From a virus: a stretch of 31,443 nt of DNA. This document shows positions 21,536 to 30,528 of the stretch, piece by piece; within the stretch, counting starts at the first letter, position 1, and each line of letters begins with the position of its first letter. The stretch covers positions 1-31,443 of the IMG/VR virus record IMGVR_UViG_3300020205_000602; one strand, written 5' to 3'. Position numbers and translations under genes: made by a program. Under the pieces are notes generated by a model. That model searched no databases. It saw only the letters and a program-made list of their open reading frames with translations, and was not told where the DNA came from.

Positions 21536-22885
21536 TTATGCGAAGAATTCGTCCAAGTCTTGGGATGTTGATTCCTCGAAGTGCTCTTCGAACATGTTTC
21601 TAGCAGTTCTGAGGATAGATGGATCATGGTTCGACTTTATTTTGAGTTCGTTCAGATAACCTGTTTCCTTACCCATAGCCAAGTCGATGTAGTGCTGAGC
21701 AACTACTTTTCGATCAAATTTCTTAATCAATTCGTAATTATTTAGCTGAATCTGTTGGTAGTCAGTTTGACTCATATTACAAAATTCTTGGATTGCCTCA
21801 CCATACTGTTTTGGGGTATAGCTCTTTTTCAGCATACAGTAGTTTACACCAGCTTTCAACAAAACCCCATTACCTTCTTCGTTGTTGGAAACCCCATAAT
21901 TTACAGCAATAGGAACAACCCCAATTCTCATGGCGTCAACCACAACCCTGTTAAAATGCTCACCAAAAGTATTAGACCAAGAAGGATCGACCAAAAATTT
22001 CGAAGTAGAAAGAATCTCATCTCGTTTTGCTCCTGAAATAAACCCAAGATATTTAAAGTTACCAGAATTCTCCGCATTCTCCCAAATACGTTTACCCCTA
22101 CGATCGTCAGTTACGTCTGGATCATATTCGGATGTCGCGAAATATTCTTCCTTACACTTGTCTTTCGACATCATGTATGCTGCCTCGATACCATAACCAC
22201 CAACCAATGTTTCAACTTTAGGCATATACGGCACAGCACGAATCAAATCATCAACACGTTTCCAACGCTTGAATGTCTGTATTGATAGAAGTTTGTTTTC
22301 CTGATTAGAATACAAAGGTGGTTGTGGGATGTTAGCAATATCTTGTGGGTTTAAGATAAGTGCCCTTGGAACATCCATAAAATCTGCTGATTCATATGCT
22401 GCTGGATGCACGCATGCGAGACCAACAAAATGTTTCTGAAATAACTGAATCCATGGGTAAAGTTTTTTCAAGTTGGCATCGTGGATAATTGGAACCTGTT
22501 TAGTTGTTACTTTCTCAACCATCGGCAACCACATCAAAGATTTCTCAGTGTCTTTATTCTTGAAACCAAAGATAGACTGCCAAATAACCAAGTCGTGCTT
22601 GTTAGCATCTTCAACAAATTTATCAATAGACTCTTTAACTTTGTAAGAATAATACGGTGCGATCCAACCATCACCTTGGTGGACAGGATAACCTGTACCA
22701 ACACCAATTTCGTAACCCTCTTTTAACTCAGTAGGCATTTCAACAGGGCGAACTGTCTTGTTACCTTTGAGATATGCGAAAGTCACTTCATGTCCAAGTT
22801 CTTTCAATCCAGCTACGAGATGTTCGCAGTGATTGATAATTCCTCCAAAGTTATTGAAGGTATGCATTACCATCATAATTTTCAT
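21536..22885 (-). CDS. GT-B (GT4-like) glycosyltransferase with clamp-tail-like C-terminus
   Basis: A 449-residue glycosyltransferase with two Rossmann-like halves. It starts MKIMMVMHTFNNFGGIINHC, with the GG-I loop typical of GT4 enzymes. The C-terminal sugar-nucleotide site region is DPSWSNTFGEHFNRVVVDAM followed by RIGVVPIAVNYG, the EX7E-like element with Asp in the second position. The last residues, SQDLDEFFA, match the ends of the DNA polymerase (NSLDEFFA) and the dioxygenase (AVLDEFFA) in this window. That suggests binding to the same replication partner, so the likely acceptor is DNA, perhaps hydroxylated bases. ATG at 22885 has AAAGGAAAAAAG and overlaps the preceding stop (ATGA). Family is sure; the DNA target is inferred. 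Confidence 0.85.
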   Translation of the reverse strand: MKIMMVMHTFNNFGGIINHCEHLVAGLKELGHEVTFAYLKGNKTVRPVEMPTELKEGYEIGVGTGYPVHQGDGWIAPYYSYKVKESIDKFVEDANKHDLVIWQSIFGFKNKDTEKSLMWLPMVEKVTTKQVPIIHDANLKKLYPWIQLFQKHFVGLACVHPAAYESADFMDVPRALILNPQDIANIPQPPLYSNQENKLLSIQTFKRWKRVDDLIRAVPYMPKVETLVGGYGIEAAYMMSKDKCKEEYFATSEYDPDVTDDRRGKRIWENAENSGNFKYLGFISGAKRDEILSTSKFLVDPSWSNTFGEHFNRVVVDAMRIGVVPIAVNYGVSNNEEGNGVLLKAGVNYCMLKKSYTPKQYGEAIQEFCNMSQTDYQQIQLNNYELIKKFDRKVVAQHYIDLAMGKETGYLNELKIKSNHDPSILRTARNMFEEHFEESTSQDLDEFFA

Positions 22886-23046
22886 CTTTTTTCCTTTAGT
22901 TCTTTCATCGTAGAATCTAACCAATCAGTCGCTTCTTTTTCGCTGTCGAAATATGGACTAATCACTTGTTTTTTATAAATGTAAAAAAAAGTATAGGTAT
23001 GCATTCCTGCGTCCCTATACCTAACAAGTTCAAGTCCAGAGTCCAT
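22882..23046 (-). CDS. small conserved-looking protein, 54 residues
   Basis: An ORF from ATG at 23046 to TGA at 22882-22884, starting MDSGLELVRYRDAGMHTYTF and ending in a charged helix DWLDSTMKELKEKR. The start is aromatic-rich and beta-like, giving a compact alpha/beta small protein. AAGGTGAGAC lies directly before the ATG. It overlaps the end of the Trp-rich protein gene by 17 bases and the glycosyltransferase start by 4, so all three are translated together. I do not recognise a function. Because it fills an exact gap with a good start site, it is probably real, possibly an accessory of the adjoining modification genes. Confidence 0.65.
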   Translation of the reverse strand: MDSGLELVRYRDAGMHTYTFFYIYKKQVISPYFDSEKEATDWLDSTMKELKEKR

Positions 23047-23887
23047 GTCTCACCTTGATCAAGCGAATCATCATATCTTCATCTTCTTGTTCATGAGCAG
23101 CTTCAATCTTATGACATTCGTCAAGCATCTTAGAAACACGTTCTTTTTCTTCTGGTGTTTTCTCATCACGGAATAATCCAAACGACTCACCATCTTCATC
23201 TTTCTCATCACGTTTCTCATCGCAATAAGCAGTCCAACCAGAAGCATCGTGTGGATCAACACGCTTTGGTCGCTCAACTGTCCACCAAGTATATAGATCT
23301 AGAATTTCTTGTGCTTTATTTGCTTGGTGAGTTGGCTTACCGAATTCTTCGTCTTCAGGTTTTAGACCATAACCCTCATCAGCTACCAATTTACGTTGCC
23401 AATCAAGATTATCTAAACCAGCTTGAGGGCAACGCCAAGTGCGCCAGCGAAACCAACCAGAAGCCCAAAAGGGAGCATTATATTTTTTCTTAGCATCACC
23501 ATCATCCCACGCAATGTGCCACCAAGCAAGTTCTACTTCGACGAATTCGACCAGTTCACCGAAAAGACAGGGGAGAAACCTGTTTCCGACATCTCGCCAT
23601 TCACCACGAGGAATATCCCTACTGTGTGCAGTAAGACAATGAGTGCGAGTAACGTAACGATTGTTAATATAGTATTTGACATCGTAGATTTTCCTAATTG
23701 GCCAAGTAATAAAGTTTTGAATATGATCAAGTCCCTCTTCAACTATCCAAAAGCGAATTGGGTGTGTTTTCTTTGCTGCTTTACGCCAAGTATACCACTC
23801 ATCGCTGGTTCCGCACTTGAGTTTATCTGTGCCACGAAGCCAGTCAGCGAACTTCGAACAAGACCAATATGTATTATGAAATGCCAA
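23030..23887 (-). CDS. Trp-rich conserved phage protein, unknown function
   Basis: A 285-residue protein that I know only as a recurrent unknown of aquatic phages, with an N-terminus of the form AFHNTYWSCSKFADWLRGT. It is exceptionally rich in Trp (for example WRKAAKK, ELAWWHIAWDDG, WFRWRTWRCP). It has a Glu/Asp-rich C-terminal half and no classic catalytic motif. The reading frame extends upstream to a TTG at 23917, but that codon lies inside the -10 box. The preferred start is TTG at 23887, seven bases after GGAG, giving a leader of about 23 bases. It starts the transcript that also carries the 54-residue ORF and the glycosyltransferase, directly after the dioxygenase. It may belong to the DNA-modification system, but this is inference from position. 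Confidence 0.7.
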   Translation of the reverse strand: MAFHNTYWSCSKFADWLRGTDKLKCGTSDEWYTWRKAAKKTHPIRFWIVEEGLDHIQNFITWPIRKIYDVKYYINNRYVTRTHCLTAHSRDIPRGEWRDVGNRFLPCLFGELVEFVEVELAWWHIAWDDGDAKKKYNAPFWASGWFRWRTWRCPQAGLDNLDWQRKLVADEGYGLKPEDEEFGKPTHQANKAQEILDLYTWWTVERPKRVDPHDASGWTAYCDEKRDEKDEDGESFGLFRDEKTPEEKERVSKMLDECHKIEAAHEQEDEDMMIRLIKVRHGLWT

Positions 23888-23916
23888 AATATATCTCCAA
23901 AACTTAATTATACTCA

Positions 23917-23945
23917 ATTATAGTTGATTATAGTTTAAATGTCAA
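23917..23945 (-). promoter_or_regulatory. perfect consensus sigma-70 promoter, with triple TATAAT
   Basis: On the minus strand TTGACA (23945-23940) and TATAAT (23922-23917) are separated by 17 bp. Two more TATAAT copies lie at 23932-23927 and 23912-23907, so three copies are spaced exactly 10 bp apart, one helical turn. The -35 box overlaps the stop codon of the dioxygenase gene. It drives the Trp-rich protein, small ORF and glycosyltransferase genes. Confidence 0.85.
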
Positions 23946-25261
23946 GCAAAAAATTCATCAAGAACTGCGTTGTTCGCATCAGAGTGGTGTTTAGCAATCA
24001 TCGCTTCACCATTAGGTTGCTTACGAAGATAATCATACCATTCCTGTTCGTCCCACATTCCTGGACTTACACCATTCCAAAGTTTTTTCCACATAGGATG
24101 CTCTTTATTTAGACGACGTGATTCAACGTATTCATAGCGAGCATTCTCATATTCCCAACTACCAAGTTCAAGCATTTTCTCGCGTAAATAAACAACAAGA
24201 GAAACACGCTCAGAACCTTCCTCACAAACAATCGGTGTATTGCCATGGATAACTTCGTGATTATTAACCAACAACAAATCGCCAGGACGCACGTTTACGG
24301 CTACACGAATTTCTGGGAAAATCAAATAACCACTTGTATAACGACCATCGTTAGATAGTGTCAACAGATTAGACATACCTTCAGTAAAGTCACCAGCATC
24401 ACGATGAGCAGCTGTGCGGAATGTTTTATTAACTGTTACTGTTGTAAATGGTGTTCCTTCAATAACAAACTTCTGATCAATAGTATCAGTTGCTGCCTTT
24501 TGATTAGCATAACGCTTTGGTAGTAGTGTTTCGAAACCACGTGCTAATGATTGTAAAAATGGATACGCCATTCTAAACTTCTCAGGGTTGTCGCGAGTAT
24601 AAGTTGTCGCACGACCAAACGGAATACGAGGATAGCGATCGAACCAACCTGCGATACCAGAATCTACTGGATTGCCATAAGATGTTTCACTAATCATCTT
24701 CATCACTTCTTCAGTCTCAATCGCACGTTGTTCACGATTAAGCGAAATGATACTGTCGATGAATTCATCAAAGTTGAATTTGTTACGGAAACGTGAGATA
24801 ACCCATACATTATTCTTACCAGAACCCAGTGCCTTCAAACGATCATCTTGAGTTGAATATCGTGAACGAACATCATCAATAACGTCACCATCAACTAAAG
24901 ATGCTGTTCGAGCACTTAAAATTGATTGAAGCATTTCTTCTTGATAGTTGGTAACCCATTCGCGACCCTCACCTGTTACTGATGTACCTTCTTTAATACC
25001 AGAAGCCAAGCCACGATTTTCAGTGCGAACTGCTGCTTCACGCAAGCCAGCATACGCAGCATCTTGTTCTTCCTTAGTAAAGAAGTTCTTACGAAATTTA
25101 AATGCGATATTTGCTTCAGAAGGTTGCCCACCAAATGATCCAACTGGCAAATAATAATCCACATCTTCCTCAACAAGAAGATCATAATGTGATTCATCTA
25201 CGAACATACCAAGCAAATGTTCTGAGTCGTGAATTTTATCTGCTACTAATACCTTTACCAT
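23942..25261 (-). CDS. TET/JBP-type 2-oxoglutarate/Fe(II) dioxygenase with clamp-tail-like C-terminus
   Basis: A 439-residue protein. The iron site is visible as HRDAGD (H286, D288), then a beta strand GYLIFPEIRVAVNVRPGDLL and NNHEVIHGNTP (H339), with R352 (ERVSLVVYLR) to hold 2-oxoglutarate. This pattern, plus an upstream RATTYTRDNPEKF segment, is that of the TET/JBP family, which hydroxylates methyl groups of DNA bases (5-methylcytosine or thymine). The C-terminus is AVLDEFFA, shared with the DNA polymerase and the glycosyltransferase. ATG at 25261 has AAAGGGGAAA; the longer frame start at 25303 would overlap the helicase. It follows the helicase in the same transcript. DNA base hydroxylation is likely; which base is unknown, since no methyltransferase is in the window. 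Confidence 0.82.
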   Translation of the reverse strand: MVKVLVADKIHDSEHLLGMFVDESHYDLLVEEDVDYYLPVGSFGGQPSEANIAFKFRKNFFTKEEQDAAYAGLREAAVRTENRGLASGIKEGTSVTGEGREWVTNYQEEMLQSILSARTASLVDGDVIDDVRSRYSTQDDRLKALGSGKNNVWVISRFRNKFNFDEFIDSIISLNREQRAIETEEVMKMISETSYGNPVDSGIAGWFDRYPRIPFGRATTYTRDNPEKFRMAYPFLQSLARGFETLLPKRYANQKAATDTIDQKFVIEGTPFTTVTVNKTFRTAAHRDAGDFTEGMSNLLTLSNDGRYTSGYLIFPEIRVAVNVRPGDLLLVNNHEVIHGNTPIVCEEGSERVSLVVYLREKMLELGSWEYENARYEYVESRRLNKEHPMWKKLWNGVSPGMWDEQEWYDYLRKQPNGEAMIAKHHSDANNAVLDEFFA

Positions 25262-25271
25262 ACATTTCCCC

Positions 25272-26672
25272 TTATACTTTAAATCCATCAAATTGACCAT
25301 CACTCTTCAGTCGTTTACCAAACTTACTTTGGTCAAACAATGGTGTGTCATCATCAACAATACCTTGTTCCGCTACATGCATTTGAGCACTCATCTCAAC
25401 ATCATAAAGTCTCATCTGCTTTCTGTCAACGCCAATCACAAATCTCTTATAGAAGTTTGGATCTGAATAACGATTCTTCAACTGCTTAACCATAATCTGA
25501 CTCATTTGATCCAACTCTTCAGTAGTAATCAGCGCAATCATCAAGTCTGCTGTTGCTGGTAAACCAAAAGATTCTGAAGTATCTTCAAGTCCTGGATCCG
25601 TGTTAGCAAAACCAGAACGAGTCGTTTGTGTAGCACTAACCAGTGGTACTTTATATTCACCTGCCAAACCACGCAACTCTTCAGCGATTGACTTAATATA
25701 TGTATAAGAGTTTACATTTGCTCCCATACGAATTCTCTGAGAAGAACAAATATTCAGATAGTCAATGTAAATAATATCAGGAATAAAATTACGTTTCATC
25801 TTCAACTCTTCAACCAATGCTCGGAAGTGACCAGCATGAGCAGAAGCAGTAGGATATTCCTTAACAATCAATTTACCTTGTGTCTTAGCACGAATCTTAC
25901 TAACACGACTGTCAAATACACGTTTCTCAACCATTTTGAGCGAATCCATAGACAACTCTAGTAAATTGGCATCAATACGTTCTGCGATTTTCTCTTCAGC
26001 CATCTCCATAGTTATGTATAAGACATTTTTACCCTGCATCAAATTACTTGCTGCGAAGTGACACATAGCCAAGGACTTACCAACACCTGTACCAGCTAAG
26101 ATAATGTTCAGTGTTTTTTTACTGAGTCCGCCATTTGTGATTTTGTTGAGCAGGTCGAGGTTGAAAGGAATCTTCTCTTCAACCCTATGATAAAAATCAT
26201 AACGTGCATCTGAATCCTCAAGATAGTCATGACCAACGTGGGAATCGAAAGTAACAGCAAGAGCTTTAGACAATAGATCGGGGATAGCATCAGTAGTTTG
26301 ATTCTTATCTTTTCCATCAATAATTTTGATTGATCCAAGAATAGCATTATAAACAGCCTTATCTTTACAGAATTTTTCTGTTGTGTTTGTAATCCAATCT
26401 AGATTTGGTAACTGATCAACATCTACAGATTCAAGAATCTCATTTGCCCTTTTAACTTGTTCCTCAGTCACATCTGTGCGATTAGATATTTCAATTTTTA
26501 AAACATCTCTGTTTGGAGCAGAGTTATACTGCGAGAAGAATTTAACAAACTCCTCAAAGATAACTCTATCTGTCCTATCAGTAAAGTAACTAGGATCTAG
26601 GAAGGGCATAACCTTTCTAGTATAAGTTTCATTACCAATTAAGTTACCAAAAATTTGGTCTTCAATCCGCAT
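25272..26672 (-). CDS. replicative DNA helicase, T4 gp41-like
   Basis: This 466-residue DnaB-type helicase unwinds the fork and works with primase. The N-terminal helical domain is followed by Walker A GTGVGKS (194-200) and Walker B IIYIDYLN (about 300-307). Further on are the DnaB-type Gln/Thr sensor (SATQTTRSG) and an Arg/Lys-rich motif (VKQLKNRYSD). Length agrees with T4 gp41 (475). Its ATG at 26672 has GAGG upstream and overlaps the end of uvsX by 11 bases. A consensus promoter within uvsX (26719-26747) may give an extra transcript for it. It does not end in LDEFFA, unlike the polymerase. Confidence 0.95.
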   Translation of the reverse strand: MRIEDQIFGNLIGNETYTRKVMPFLDPSYFTDRTDRVIFEEFVKFFSQYNSAPNRDVLKIEISNRTDVTEEQVKRANEILESVDVDQLPNLDWITNTTEKFCKDKAVYNAILGSIKIIDGKDKNQTTDAIPDLLSKALAVTFDSHVGHDYLEDSDARYDFYHRVEEKIPFNLDLLNKITNGGLSKKTLNIILAGTGVGKSLAMCHFAASNLMQGKNVLYITMEMAEEKIAERIDANLLELSMDSLKMVEKRVFDSRVSKIRAKTQGKLIVKEYPTASAHAGHFRALVEELKMKRNFIPDIIYIDYLNICSSQRIRMGANVNSYTYIKSIAEELRGLAGEYKVPLVSATQTTRSGFANTDPGLEDTSESFGLPATADLMIALITTEELDQMSQIMVKQLKNRYSDPNFYKRFVIGVDRKQMRLYDVEMSAQMHVAEQGIVDDDTPLFDQSKFGKRLKSDGQFDGFKV

Positions 26673-27717
26673 CTACTTCTTCCTCTTTTTCAACGACTTC
26701 ATCATCAGCACTACCATAATTATACTTCCCTTTACAGTATTTGTCAAGCTGTTTTAAGATATCTTCGGAGAAAAAGTCAGAAGGATTGTTGGCAATATTT
26801 TTACCAAATACTTTACGACCATCGTGTACTTCGATACGACCACCTTGTGCTTTCCAGATACCAGCTTCAACAGCAAGATCGGTAAGACCATGGTAACGAT
26901 CAAGACCTTTAGTAAATGAGAGTTTAGTTTCGACCATAGATTTCTCACGAGTGAAACGAGATTTCTCAACTTTACATTTGATAATATTACCAACAACTTC
27001 AGTACCATCTTTGTCTTGCGACTTAGACAAGAACACAATCGAAGAAGCTGCATATTTCAAACCATCACCACCACCCATAGTACGAGATGGCATATAAGAA
27101 CCGATGACTGCGTAGGTATGATTGGTAACAACCATAGCAACATCAAGTTTAGATAACTTCAATGACAACACACGGAATGCGCCACGAATCAACTGAGAAC
27201 GTGTCATATCACGAGTGTCTTTACCCTCAGCGATATCTTCCATCTCTTTAGAAGTTGATAACATACCCAATGAGTCCAAGAAGAACATTAATGGTGGGCG
27301 ATCTTTCTTTGGTGTTTTCTCATAAGAGTCGAGAACCTTAGTAGCCTGAGTGCGGAATTCTTGAACAGTTGATACGGGAACAATCATAAAACGCTTGGTA
27401 TCAATACCACGCTCCTCTAACATCTCACGATTCAACGCACCTTCTGTCTCGAAGTAAATGACTCCAGCTTTGTCATCAGTTCGAAGAAAATTGTTCGCAA
27501 TGCCAAGGGCATAGAATGTTTTCCCTGTTGAAGACTCACCAGCCAGAGCTGTAACTTTGTTCCCAGGTAAACCACCATAGATGCTGCCAGATAACAAGGC
27601 ATTGAGAGTATAAGAACCAGTGTCGATAAAAGTATTAGTATCACCAACGACACCGTCATCAGCCAATCCCGCATATTCATTATCTAACTCCTTAACAATA
27701 TCTTTTAGAAAATTCAT
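26662..27717 (-). CDS. uvsX: UvsX recombinase (RecA-like)
   Basis: A 351-residue RecA-fold strand-exchange protein for recombination-dependent replication and repair. Walker A is GESSTGKT (60-67) and Walker B is MFFLDSLG (about 144-151). Between them lies FETEGALNREML, the catalytic Glu region. SRTMGGGDGLKYAASSIVF is a typical loop 2 and DNA-binding region. The C-terminus is acidic (EVVEKEEEVDAD), as in T4 UvsX, and could contact partners such as UvsY or the single-strand binding protein. Its ATG overlaps the preceding stop (ATGA) with AGGAG just before, so it is coupled to the 83-residue Zn protein. Length is slightly shorter than T4 UvsX (391). Confidence 0.95.
   Translation of the reverse strand: MNFLKDIVKELDNEYAGLADDGVVGDTNTFIDTGSYTLNALLSGSIYGGLPGNKVTALAGESSTGKTFYALGIANNFLRTDDKAGVIYFETEGALNREMLEERGIDTKRFMIVPVSTVQEFRTQATKVLDSYEKTPKKDRPPLMFFLDSLGMLSTSKEMEDIAEGKDTRDMTRSQLIRGAFRVLSLKLSKLDVAMVVTNHTYAVIGSYMPSRTMGGGDGLKYAASSIVFLSKSQDKDGTEVVGNIIKCKVEKSRFTREKSMVETKLSFTKGLDRYHGLTDLAVEAGIWKAQGGRIEVHDGRKVFGKNIANNPSDFFSEDILKQLDKYCKGKYNYGSADDEVVEKEEEVDAD
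26719..26747 (-). promoter_or_regulatory. perfect consensus sigma-70 promoter inside uvsX
   Basis: On the minus strand TTGACA (26747-26742) and TATAAT (26724-26719) are separated by 17 bp. RNA would start near 26712, giving a 40-base leader to the helicase ATG at 26672. Full match in coding sequence is unlikely by chance, so helicase and dioxygenase may be expressed apart from uvsX. Confidence 0.65.
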
Positions 27718-27965
27718 TTTGTCTCCTGTTCAAATGTTACTTCGCTGGCTACCATTGACAAATACTCAATAGCGCATACCAAACAATAAGTTTTATTTTC
27801 GTACCCAAACTCTGGCATGTTTACACGAAATGCGTAAGCATCATTCAACTCTCCATGTTTTTCGCAAAACATTTTTGGAAGTGTCTGTGGTTGTGGGGTT
27901 TCTTTAATTACTTCATCAATTGGTGGGAAATCAATTGGATCGTCTGTATTAGTTTCATGTGTCAT
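27714..27965 (-). CDS. small metal-binding-type unknown protein upstream of uvsX
   Basis: An 83-residue protein with an acidic, Pro-rich N-terminal half (DDPIDFPPIDEVIKETPQPQ) and a C-terminal half with cysteine/histidine pairs: CEKHGEL (Cys, His) and, 25 residues later, YCLVCAIEYL (CxxC). This suits a single zinc knuckle. It is the first gene after a promoter, with AGGAG eight bases before the ATG, and its stop overlaps the uvsX start. The location suggests a role near recombination or replication; the specific function is unknown. Confidence 0.7.
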   Translation of the reverse strand: MTHETNTDDPIDFPPIDEVIKETPQPQTLPKMFCEKHGELNDAYAFRVNMPEFGYENKTYCLVCAIEYLSMVASEVTFEQETK

Positions 27966-27987
27966 GTTTTCTCCTAGTGTTTCATAT

Positions 27988-28016
27988 ATTATACTATGTA
28001 TATTGTTTTAAAGCAA
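27988..28016 (-). promoter_or_regulatory. sigma-70-like promoter for the uvsX transcript
   Basis: On the minus strand TTGCTT (28016-28011) and TATAAT (27993-27988) are 17 bp apart, with RNA start near 27981 and a 16-base leader that includes AGGAG. It lies just after the DNA polymerase stop and serves the Zn protein, uvsX and helicase. Confidence 0.75.
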
Positions 28017-28020
28017 AAAA

Positions 28021-30528
28021 TTATGCGAAGAATTCGTCAAGACTATTTTGTTCTTCGATAGTCCAACCAATTGATTGCATAATAGCTGAAAGTGGATCAA
28101 GGAACACTTTCTGAAACTGCTTTTCATAGTCTACGTATTTATGTAGCCCAAATTCTTTCGGGAGTGTGTTAGTAAAACTGATAACATCCTCACGAATAAT
28201 GTTCGGCTCTTTCAAGTAGATAAATTTGATTCGATCACCCTCACGAATCAACTGGTGTTTTCCCAACAAGCCATGTTCTTTAACAAAGTGGTTGAACATT
28301 AACGCACCTCTAACATGAATCGGTGTAGATTTACGATAGATGTTTGCTGGGTCAGAATACTCTTTCAAATTGTTAACGCTTCTTGGAAAAGCAGCATCTT
28401 CAACAGGAAGATTATAAAACTCTTTCTGATAGTCAATAATAAATTTACGCAAGGCAAGTTGATCACCTTTGATGACAATCGTCATCGCTTCCTTCAATTT
28501 GGCACGAACGACCAGCGGAGTTGATGACTTGATCATCTCAAGACCCATAATCTTCATCTTTGGTTGTGCGTATTGAACACCTTCAGAATTGTGTACGTTT
28601 AAGACGTAACGCTTCTTAGCAGTCCAGATACCTTTATCCGCAATAACCTCACGCTTCATAATCATCTTTTGATCAAATGCGTTTTGTCGTTCAGCCAACT
28701 CCTCATAACATTTATCGATGAATGGTTGAAGACGATCTTCACAAATTCTATCAATGTAGCGAACAACTTTATCTTTGTCGAGTTGCTCCTCTTTACTAAA
28801 GACTTTATCTACCAATGGACCGAAACGCAAATAGACTGAGTCAGTATCAACAGCGATAACGTAGTCTGCTTTCTCAGTCTTGAGTAGTTTGTTAAAATAC
28901 TCATTGAATTTCTTTTCCATCCAACGAATAGACAACTGACCACTCAACGTGATACCTTCAGACATGCGTTGATCATAGTATCGGAAATACTGATTAGCCA
29001 ACGCACCATAAGCAGAGTTCAGGGCAATCTTTAAAGCCATCTGTAGATTGTTGAGACGAGAGATCTCATTCAATAATGATTTATCTTTTGTGTTTTCGTA
29101 TTCTTGTTGAATACGCAACATTTGCTTTTTACTTTTACTACGATTTGTGTACATCGTTTCCATCAACTCAGGTAAGAAACCTTTAATGTCTTTACGATAA
29201 CACCAACCATTAGCAGTACAAGACAAATTTAAATCATGGTACCCACCAGTCTCCGCATGCTCAAGAAAATAACCAACACCACCAACATGTTTATATCCAG
29301 TATCCATTGTCTCAGGACTAATGTTATACTGCATAATCAAGTGAGGATATAGACTGTTCAAGTCAAATGAAACAACCCAGTCATGCATGCCCACGAGAGG
29401 GTCTTTAACATAAGCACCCTCAATCACAGAATCTTTATCATTGCTAACTTTATTTGGAATGACAACTTTCTTAGCACGCAAATGATTATAGATGATTGTA
29501 TCCCACATACGAACCTGTGAGAAAACATCCTCATAGTTTACCTTTGCGTTATACGCCATAACCATAGCAAGTTCAACCAACTTCATCTTATCTTCAAGTT
29601 TGTCAACAAGCACAGTGTCGTGAATGTTGTAATCAACAAACTTTTTCCATCCGTAAGTATAGAAGTCTTTGAAGGTATCGTACTCTGAGTAGTCTAGTTT
29701 ATTCTCACCAAGTTCAACGAAAGCAATGTGATCAAGTTTATACGACTCTTGCATAGAATACGTAAACTTTTTATAGAGATCGATATAATCTAACGCAGAA
29801 ATACCAGCGATGTCATAGCTGATTTGCTCAGTGCCTTTAACATGAATCCTGCGCTCATTGATAACTCCCCATGGTGATAATTGTTTCGCATGTGTCTCAC
29901 CAAGTTGATTGATGATACGACGAATCAGATATGGTGTATCAAAGAAGTTGATGTTCCAGCCAGTGATAACATCAGGATAATCTTTTTTCCAGAAGTCGAT
30001 GAAGTTTAGTAGAAGTGCGTTTTCATTTTCGCATTGATGAAAGATTACTTCTTTGTTGCCTGTGTATGGGCTTTTACCAAAAGTGTGAATCTCTTTGGTC
30101 TGCCCATCCATCAATGTGATTAAAAGAACTTCTTCGTTAGCAGTTTCAATATTAGGAAACCCATCTTCCGTAGATGTCTCAATGTCGATAGAATATCGTT
30201 TGATTAAATCTTTGTTGAATGTTATGTCAGCTGGATAATTGTCTGAGAGATATTGATATGCGAAGTTTGTGTTACCATAAACATCAAACCCATTTATGTT
30301 CTTGTACCTTTCAAGAAACTCTTTTGTGTCTTTGATAGATCCAGGTTTGATTGGGTACAACACTTGTCCGTCAAGTGTGCGAAATATTTCTTCTGAAGAG
30401 TTCTTGCTCTTCGATGATGCGTAAAGTGTGGGATTAAAATCTAGTTTGTGTTTGTATGGTTGACCATTATCATAACCACGTACACATAGTTTGTTTCCCA
30501 TTGGGAATACGTTGGTGTAAAATTCCAT
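28021..30528 (-). CDS. family B DNA polymerase, T4 gp43-like
   Basis: The phage replicase, 835 residues (T4 gp43 has 898). The proofreading exonuclease domain shows DIET (D115, E117), GWNINFFDTPYLIRR (about 190-204) and a late YNIHDTVLVD. The polymerase domain shows DLNSLYPHLIMQYN (from D389), KIALNSAYGALANQYF (about 500-515), AVDTDSVYL with DTDS at 561-564, and KKRYVLNVHN. All catalytic residues look intact. The last residues, QNSLDEFFA (827-835), match the Q-x-x-L-x-x-F-F clamp-binding pattern, as the C-terminus of T4 gp43 binds the gp45 clamp. The glycosyltransferase and the dioxygenase end in the same LDEFFA. The ATG has AAGGAG five bases upstream and follows a promoter. Confidence 0.96.
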   Translation of the reverse strand: MEFYTNVFPMGNKLCVRGYDNGQPYKHKLDFNPTLYASSKSKNSSEEIFRTLDGQVLYPIKPGSIKDTKEFLERYKNINGFDVYGNTNFAYQYLSDNYPADITFNKDLIKRYSIDIETSTEDGFPNIETANEEVLLITLMDGQTKEIHTFGKSPYTGNKEVIFHQCENENALLLNFIDFWKKDYPDVITGWNINFFDTPYLIRRIINQLGETHAKQLSPWGVINERRIHVKGTEQISYDIAGISALDYIDLYKKFTYSMQESYKLDHIAFVELGENKLDYSEYDTFKDFYTYGWKKFVDYNIHDTVLVDKLEDKMKLVELAMVMAYNAKVNYEDVFSQVRMWDTIIYNHLRAKKVVIPNKVSNDKDSVIEGAYVKDPLVGMHDWVVSFDLNSLYPHLIMQYNISPETMDTGYKHVGGVGYFLEHAETGGYHDLNLSCTANGWCYRKDIKGFLPELMETMYTNRSKSKKQMLRIQQEYENTKDKSLLNEISRLNNLQMALKIALNSAYGALANQYFRYYDQRMSEGITLSGQLSIRWMEKKFNEYFNKLLKTEKADYVIAVDTDSVYLRFGPLVDKVFSKEEQLDKDKVVRYIDRICEDRLQPFIDKCYEELAERQNAFDQKMIMKREVIADKGIWTAKKRYVLNVHNSEGVQYAQPKMKIMGLEMIKSSTPLVVRAKLKEAMTIVIKGDQLALRKFIIDYQKEFYNLPVEDAAFPRSVNNLKEYSDPANIYRKSTPIHVRGALMFNHFVKEHGLLGKHQLIREGDRIKFIYLKEPNIIREDVISFTNTLPKEFGLHKYVDYEKQFQKVFLDPLSAIMQSIGWTIEEQNSLDEFFA

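Follow-up and report, generated by a model that had tools for sequence, protein, structure and literature searches.

The question raised by this locus is why a DNA polymerase, a TET/JBP-type dioxygenase and a glycosyltransferase (GT) end in the same six residues, LDEFFA. All three are encoded on IMG/VR virus record IMGVR_UViG_3300020205_000602, a fragment of a T4-type myovirus, whose 31,443 nt were analysed as a whole and are called the window in the following. The best answer, to which we assign a probability of roughly 87%, is that the ending is a sliding-clamp-interacting peptide by which the dioxygenase and the GT would be held on the clamp, modifying new DNA behind the replication fork. 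The features concerned are as follows.

28021 to 30528, minus strand: family B DNA polymerase of the T4 gp43 type, 835 aa (Pfam DNA_pol_B and exo1; PHROG 262, E=0)
28024 to 28044, minus strand: SLDEFFA, C-terminal clamp-interacting peptide of the polymerase (alignment with the T4 gp43 terminus SLDFLFG)
23942 to 25261, minus strand: TET/JBP-type 2OG-Fe(II) dioxygenase (Pfam Tet_JBP, E 5e-25)
23945 to 23962, minus strand: LDEFFA tail of the dioxygenase behind a variable linker (direct reading, conservation in 33 homologues, low model confidence, pLDDT)
21536 to 22885, minus strand: GT of the GT4/Glycos_transf_1 type (Pfam Glycos_transf_1, E 1.5e-10)
21539 to 21556, minus strand: LDEFFA tail of the GT behind a variable linker (direct reading, four-way alignment, 16/17 relatives)

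Compared with cyanophage gp43, the polymerase shows 53-55% identity. The open reading frames (ORFs) of the GT and the dioxygenase extend upstream to 22924 and 25303, and the starts proposed in the original prediction, 22885 and 25261, are those conserved among relatives (MKI.., MVKVIVA..). Its span of 21536-28048 covers both enzyme genes, but of the polymerase gene it takes in no more than the end.

The proteins read QNSLDEFFA (polymerase), NNAVLDEFFA (dioxygenase) and SQDLDEFFA (GT), and in all three the stop codon follows directly, which places the peptide at the extreme C-terminus. A six-frame scan revealed no further LDEFFA and no further ORF of annotated length with such an end, so that the ending is indeed confined to these proteins in the window. 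With 30 plausible genes and the residue usage of the window, about 1e-11 triples sharing their last six residues would be expected, and chance identity was rejected on this basis. The original prediction had also argued from codon usage that selection acts on the peptide. This holds for the dioxygenase, which is written GAT GAA TTT TTT GCT TGA and differs in four of the five DEFFA codons. The tails of the polymerase and the GT share 18 identical bases, GACGAATTCTTCGCATAA; since codon usage alone gives such sharing with a probability of about 0.015 for one pair and about 0.044 for any of the three pairs, the codon argument within the window is limited to the dioxygenase. The 18 bases could nevertheless be taken as the trace of a recent copy at the DNA level, by gene conversion or 3'-end duplication, which would leave both enzymes with a functionless tail. 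We consider this highly improbable, because the dioxygenase codons differ, the linkers are unlike each other, and the tails persist across proteins that are 41-58% identical. Furthermore, in relatives the tails are written with many synonymous codons and vary by conservative substitution (LEEFFG, LEDLFA, LDDFFG) yet keep L-[DE]-x-F-F, and by this variety a shared DNA repeat was rejected as the cause of the tails.

The identity of the peptide becomes apparent from T4 itself, in which gp43 ends in KASLDFLFG, gp33 in TNTLDFLL and gp55 in SPSLDFLYEAND, the last of these with SLDFLYEAND at its end. These tails are highly similar, bind the sliding clamp gp45 and are freely interchangeable (PMC2988020). 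In gp43, residues 892-SLDFLF-897 sit as a single helical turn in a hydrophobic pocket between two clamp domains, and removal of the last six residues abolishes clamp association (PMC12746103). The statement in the original prediction that the gp43 C-terminus binds gp45 is thus structurally and genetically proven, and SLDEFF of the window polymerase aligns with exactly this peptide. The PIP-box pattern Q-x-x-L-x-x-F-F, to which the tail had first been compared, is a looser fit: its glutamine varies among relatives of the polymerase, while the T4 pattern [S/T/N]-L-[D/E]-x-[F/L]-F is kept and is the actual match. Like the motif of T4 gp43, gp33 and gp55 (named CIP or SCBM), the tails are C-terminal, combine hydrophobic and acidic residues as x-L-D-x-F/L-F/L/Y, and follow a divergent linker; the clamp type in relatives of the window is also the same. 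They differ in that the T4 motif is known from the polymerase and from late-transcription proteins, whereas here base-modifying enzymes bear it.

A T4-type gp45 is encoded in near relatives (G001, G002 and G005; L067:1501-2157 and others) and matches T4 gp45 with an E of 2e-26. Its AlphaFold2 model (pLDDT 94.8) has its best fold match, with a TM score of 0.92, in 6drt, the structure of the T4 gp45 clamp in complex with a ligase peptide. Each of the three protomers of gp45 provides one pocket. The AlphaFold2 model of the dioxygenase matches human TET2, CcTet and NgTet1 (Foldseek E down to 2e-11); its last 13 residues have a pLDDT of 48-63 with a short helix predicted, in agreement with a flexible linker ahead of the peptide.

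As proposed in the original prediction, the tail was looked for in homologues. A dioxygenase scan of IMG/VR yielded 62 relatives, almost all of them tailed (LDEFFA, LEEFFG, LEDLFA, LEDFF). In an alignment of 33 dioxygenases, whose other members are 45-91% identical to the window enzyme, Leu448 and Phe452 reach a conservation of 90% or more, though the directly preceding residues vary. The same holds true for a four-way alignment of the GT, in which L-D and the last F are invariant and the columns before them variable. For a quantitative comparison, a six-position tail score was trained solely on polymerase C-termini, with a cut that 0.5% of 17,400 random internal positions, used as pseudo-C-termini, pass; it superseded a loose regular expression that misclassified some tailless TET-associated glycosyltransferases (TAGT, PF20691). 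The score was passed by 146/153 polymerases, 140/160 dioxygenases, 16/17 GT relatives, 33/49 TAGTs and 44/66 D12 adenine methyltransferases, and by only four of 714 proteins of the types gp41, UvsX, gp45, gp44, gp62, RegA, gp46, gp47, UvsW and UvsY taken together. Unassigned ORFs of at least 150 aa passed in 26 of 2009 cases (1.3%), among them a TAGT (L474), an N6/N4 methyltransferase and a BglII-type endonuclease (L418). In nine large records with 1465 greedy gene calls, 28 genes passed, of which 21 are by our own sorting polymerases or modification enzymes (polymerases, dioxygenases, GTs, TAGTs, one GNAT and one amino acid:DNA transferase, ADDT, PF18724). Four of the seven others are PF12322-type baseplate proteins, three of them confirmed by Pfam, and the remainder of about 0.5% corresponds to the level that the cut permits by chance.

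The tails also occur together. When all ORFs of at least 80 aa in the loci of dioxygenase relatives were searched, the only tailed ORFs besides polymerase, dioxygenase and GT were ADDT, GNAT, TAGT, gp55-like sigma factors and one stray ORF. Among 40 distinct tail combinations of dioxygenase and polymerase, 36 have a tail on every scored member, and in pairs of dioxygenase and TAGT the two tails are almost always present or absent together (29 with both, 11 with neither and 2 with one). ADDT and GNAT were not accepted as full tail carriers and are counted only as possible variants, since ADDTs end in GLEALW/GLENF and pass in 6/82 cases and GNATs in 20/78. The ending GLEALW, GLENF or GLEMFT is conserved in L047, L018, L054, L064 and about 100 ADDT homologues beside a dioxygenase, and may represent a second type of clamp tail. 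In relatives of gp55, an acidic stretch comes after a related motif (G002, NSLETFLEEDSNE), and these proteins fail the polymerase-trained score.

The use of the same motif by T4 gp55 and gp33 for late transcription raises the question whether the tails bind gp45 for other ends, such as clamp-dependent storage, blocked polymerase exchange, or a steering of late transcription against gp55 and gp33, all the more as the clamp offers three sites, for which all tails would have to compete. The distribution of the tail, however, tracks enzymes acting on bases (TET, GT, TAGT and D12 methyltransferase), for which placement on DNA is the simplest explanation, and such other roles appear unlikely.

A natural control is provided by phages without the T4 replisome. 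The group in which neither dioxygenase nor TAGT is tailed consists of small phage records, many of 25-33 kb, some of which have genes in common with the cultured phage HTVC112P. Neither gp43 nor gp44 was matched in the records with tailless TAGT, which may be fragments, so that this is no proof for a single one. The TAGTs of these small phages align with tailed TAGTs from T4-type phages at 65-74% identity across about 250 residues, yet end right behind the domain (..NAELRLKDMR). The TET enzymes of the same phages are likewise without tail, and the cultured phages HTVC112P and P12024L, also of non-T4 type, have tailless TET enzymes as well. When dioxygenases were clustered at 70% identity, the tail was present in 13/13 T4 contexts, and the four clusters without tail had no T4 genes. 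Two tailed clusters lacked nearby markers; one of them lies on a contig with a gp41 helicase (G020) and the other on one with a T4 baseplate protein (G019/L347). Since the tail matches the T4 gp43 peptide, is kept behind a variable linker, occurs where relatives have a T4-type clamp and is absent from homologues without T4 replisome, a tethering of the modification enzymes to the clamp is strongly supported as far as sequences can speak to it, and the suggestion that both enzymes ride on the clamp together with the polymerase stands at that level.

Several points weigh against this interpretation. In the TAGT tree, the tailless members require only three state changes, and two independent pairs (p 0.5) are too few for significance. 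Both pairs go in the expected direction, and the natural control is altogether strong in kind and modest in count. The gp45 gene, which the original prediction proposed to find, was obtained from close relatives, that of the window phage itself lying outside the 31,443-nt fragment. Tailless enzymes, which the original prediction had named as evidence against itself, also occur in T4-type phages. The dioxygenases of L011 and L012 end in GQNLMEMDL and overlap the GT start, those of L138 and L139 end in EHNRLVES, that of L044 in KKEYTLDI, and L049 and L014 show a degenerate LGDEWFA; the dioxygenase of Caulobacter phage Cr30 ends in GATLF. These exceptions in T4-type phages are few and form no pattern, and several exception loci still have the tail on a partner. 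Furthermore, most cyanophage D12 methyltransferases (Dam) are tailless despite a T4-type replisome. Because of these methyltransferases and the dioxygenase exceptions, the tag is considered common and selected, yet not essential, and some lineages can do without the tether. A universal presence on modification enzymes was accordingly rejected, as T4 AGT, BGT and Dam, most cyanophage Dam and some T4-type dioxygenases have no tail.

A different objection arises from unrelated T4 baseplate proteins (PF12322) that end in EGLESFF. With these and a few other passing ORFs, the tail is not exclusive to modification enzymes, and the motif alone is no proof. Since similar ends evidently arise otherwise, the tail might be no clamp ligand but a structural or degradation signal, short and hydrophobic, which DNA-acting enzymes have in common by happenstance. 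This is quite improbable, as clamp binding is proven for polymerase tails of this type, non-T4 phages retain the enzymes and not the tail, and other T4 replication proteins are without it. In three of the baseplate proteins (L085:5797-6501, L506:7960-8688, L517:17091-17816), EGLESFF stands directly behind a zinc-ribbon-like CxxC stretch.

Two loci deserve a separate description. The locus of the cultured phage Cr30 (L076, 20001-25164) encodes, apart from the dioxygenase described above, an ADDT and a weak TAGT match ending in ISDLSKLF; it is probably a partly eroded version of the tail system, present here in a phage with a laboratory host. L418:1571-6922 (also L419 and L420) comprises in one run a polymerase, a D12 methyltransferase (STLDAFFG), a BglII-type endonuclease (NNIENFFE) and an N6/N4 methyltransferase (ILDSFFE), each of them with a clamp-like tail. 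This putative restriction-modification set is borne by a phage and may be carried on the clamp.

The assignment of the dioxygenase is clear, with a Tet_JBP domain score of 88.1 bits compared to a curated cut-off of 34.9 and an HxD...H iron triad plus arginine (H300, D302, H353, R366) that is invariant in 33 homologues. A C5-cytosine methyltransferase (PF00145) as a route to 5-methylcytosine was looked for in 18 related records (including G001, G039, G040 and G041; four of 162-174 kb) and none was found, the same search giving matches in 10/14 control genomes. Because of this result and of the ADDT genes that are often nearby, thymine is no less plausible as a target than 5-methylcytosine; its oxidation would then be JBP-like and lead to hydroxymethyluracil. 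The GT of the window does not belong to the T4 AGT or BGT families (PF11440, PF09198), its Pfam match being Glycos_transf_1. None of its relatives was found among 50,697 cultured-phage records, and relatives are present in IMG/VR.

The remaining genes near the tailed ones are the following.

25272 to 26672, minus strand: gp41-type replicative helicase, tailless (PHROG 19, E 8e-124)
26662 to 27717, minus strand: UvsX-type recombinase, tailless (PHROG 97, E 7.5e-85)
23030 to 23917, minus strand: protein of 295 aa without tail between dioxygenase and GT (no Pfam/PHROG match)

The protein of 295 aa is a candidate for a further member of the modification locus. From reading the translations, NrdA, NrdB and ThyX are also encoded in the window, and an ORF of 129 aa at 568-957 resembles, by eye only, a GIY-YIG-type protein (NWYGFIYEITN...YIGRKY).

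The following mechanism can be proposed. The polymerase tail would be an ordinary T4 gp43 tail plugging into the hydrophobic pocket of gp45, and the dioxygenase and the GT, bearing an equal peptide on a short flexible linker, would be held on the same clamp, where the three proteins would take turns at, or share, the three pockets. The dioxygenase would hydroxylate the base and the GT then cap the hydroxyl, so that modification would be post-synthetic and follow just behind the fork while the clamp moves off from it. The advantage would be that the gap is closed before unmodified DNA meets restriction enzymes. More tentatively, and in our view possible rather than probable, one portable peptide address could load the whole base-modification line of T4-type phages on the clamp, comprising methyltransferase, TET/JBP enzyme, glycosyltransferases and perhaps acetyl- and amino-acid transferases. 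In phages of this kind the three sites could then hold polymerase, oxidase and GT at once, modification would be a part of the replisome, and the address would be lost or gained as genes move between phages with and without the clamp.

The motif, the clamp and the clamp binding by one phage glucosyltransferase are already known. T4 alpha-glucosyltransferase binds gp45 (Sommer 2004; confirmed in PMC13216743) and is in this respect the same case of a phage DNA glycosyltransferase on the sliding clamp, but it ends in QFDIITK and carries no such tail, so that its binding mode differs or is internal, which has to be added to the points against our interpretation. The same applies to the finding that the T4 alpha/beta ratio is set mostly by expression strength and not by clamp binding (2026 study, PMC13216743), owing to which a functional benefit of clamp tethering is not assured. 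T4 BGT ends in KKAIDL, also without such a tail. T4 DNA ligase (6drt) is likewise a DNA-processing enzyme with a gp45-binding peptide, but its end, HEVTGL, does not follow the tail motif. The phage TET/TAGT pathways (PF12851, PF20691) involve the same enzyme families, with the difference that small non-T4 phages run the pathway without the tail. In eukaryotes, the coupling of DNMT1 to PCNA ties DNA modification to replication via a clamp-binding peptide. DNMT1 is a PCNA client (PMC5264654), and the principle of coupling is the same, but clamp lineage, enzymes and motif position differ, and the comparison is an analogy only. No report of a clamp peptide on T4-type TET/JBP enzymes, two unrelated GT families and adenine methyltransferases was found in the open literature; subscription journals were mostly outside this scope and priority is not asserted. 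What appears to be new is a portable C-terminal clamp tag, predicted from these endings, on the DNA modifiers of T4-type phages.

From the old and debated coupling of modification and replication via the T4 clamp, the finding derives a general rule that can be read and tested, in which the last six residues tell the clamp riders. The tail thereby offers a way to spot hitherto unrecognised DNA-modifying enzymes in T4-type genomes, and one enzyme family with and without the tag provides a clean natural contrast. If the interpretation is true, phage hypermodification would be linked to the replisome as the bacteriophage counterpart of clamp-coupled DNMT1, and the loss of six residues would separate modification at the fork from modification at a later time.

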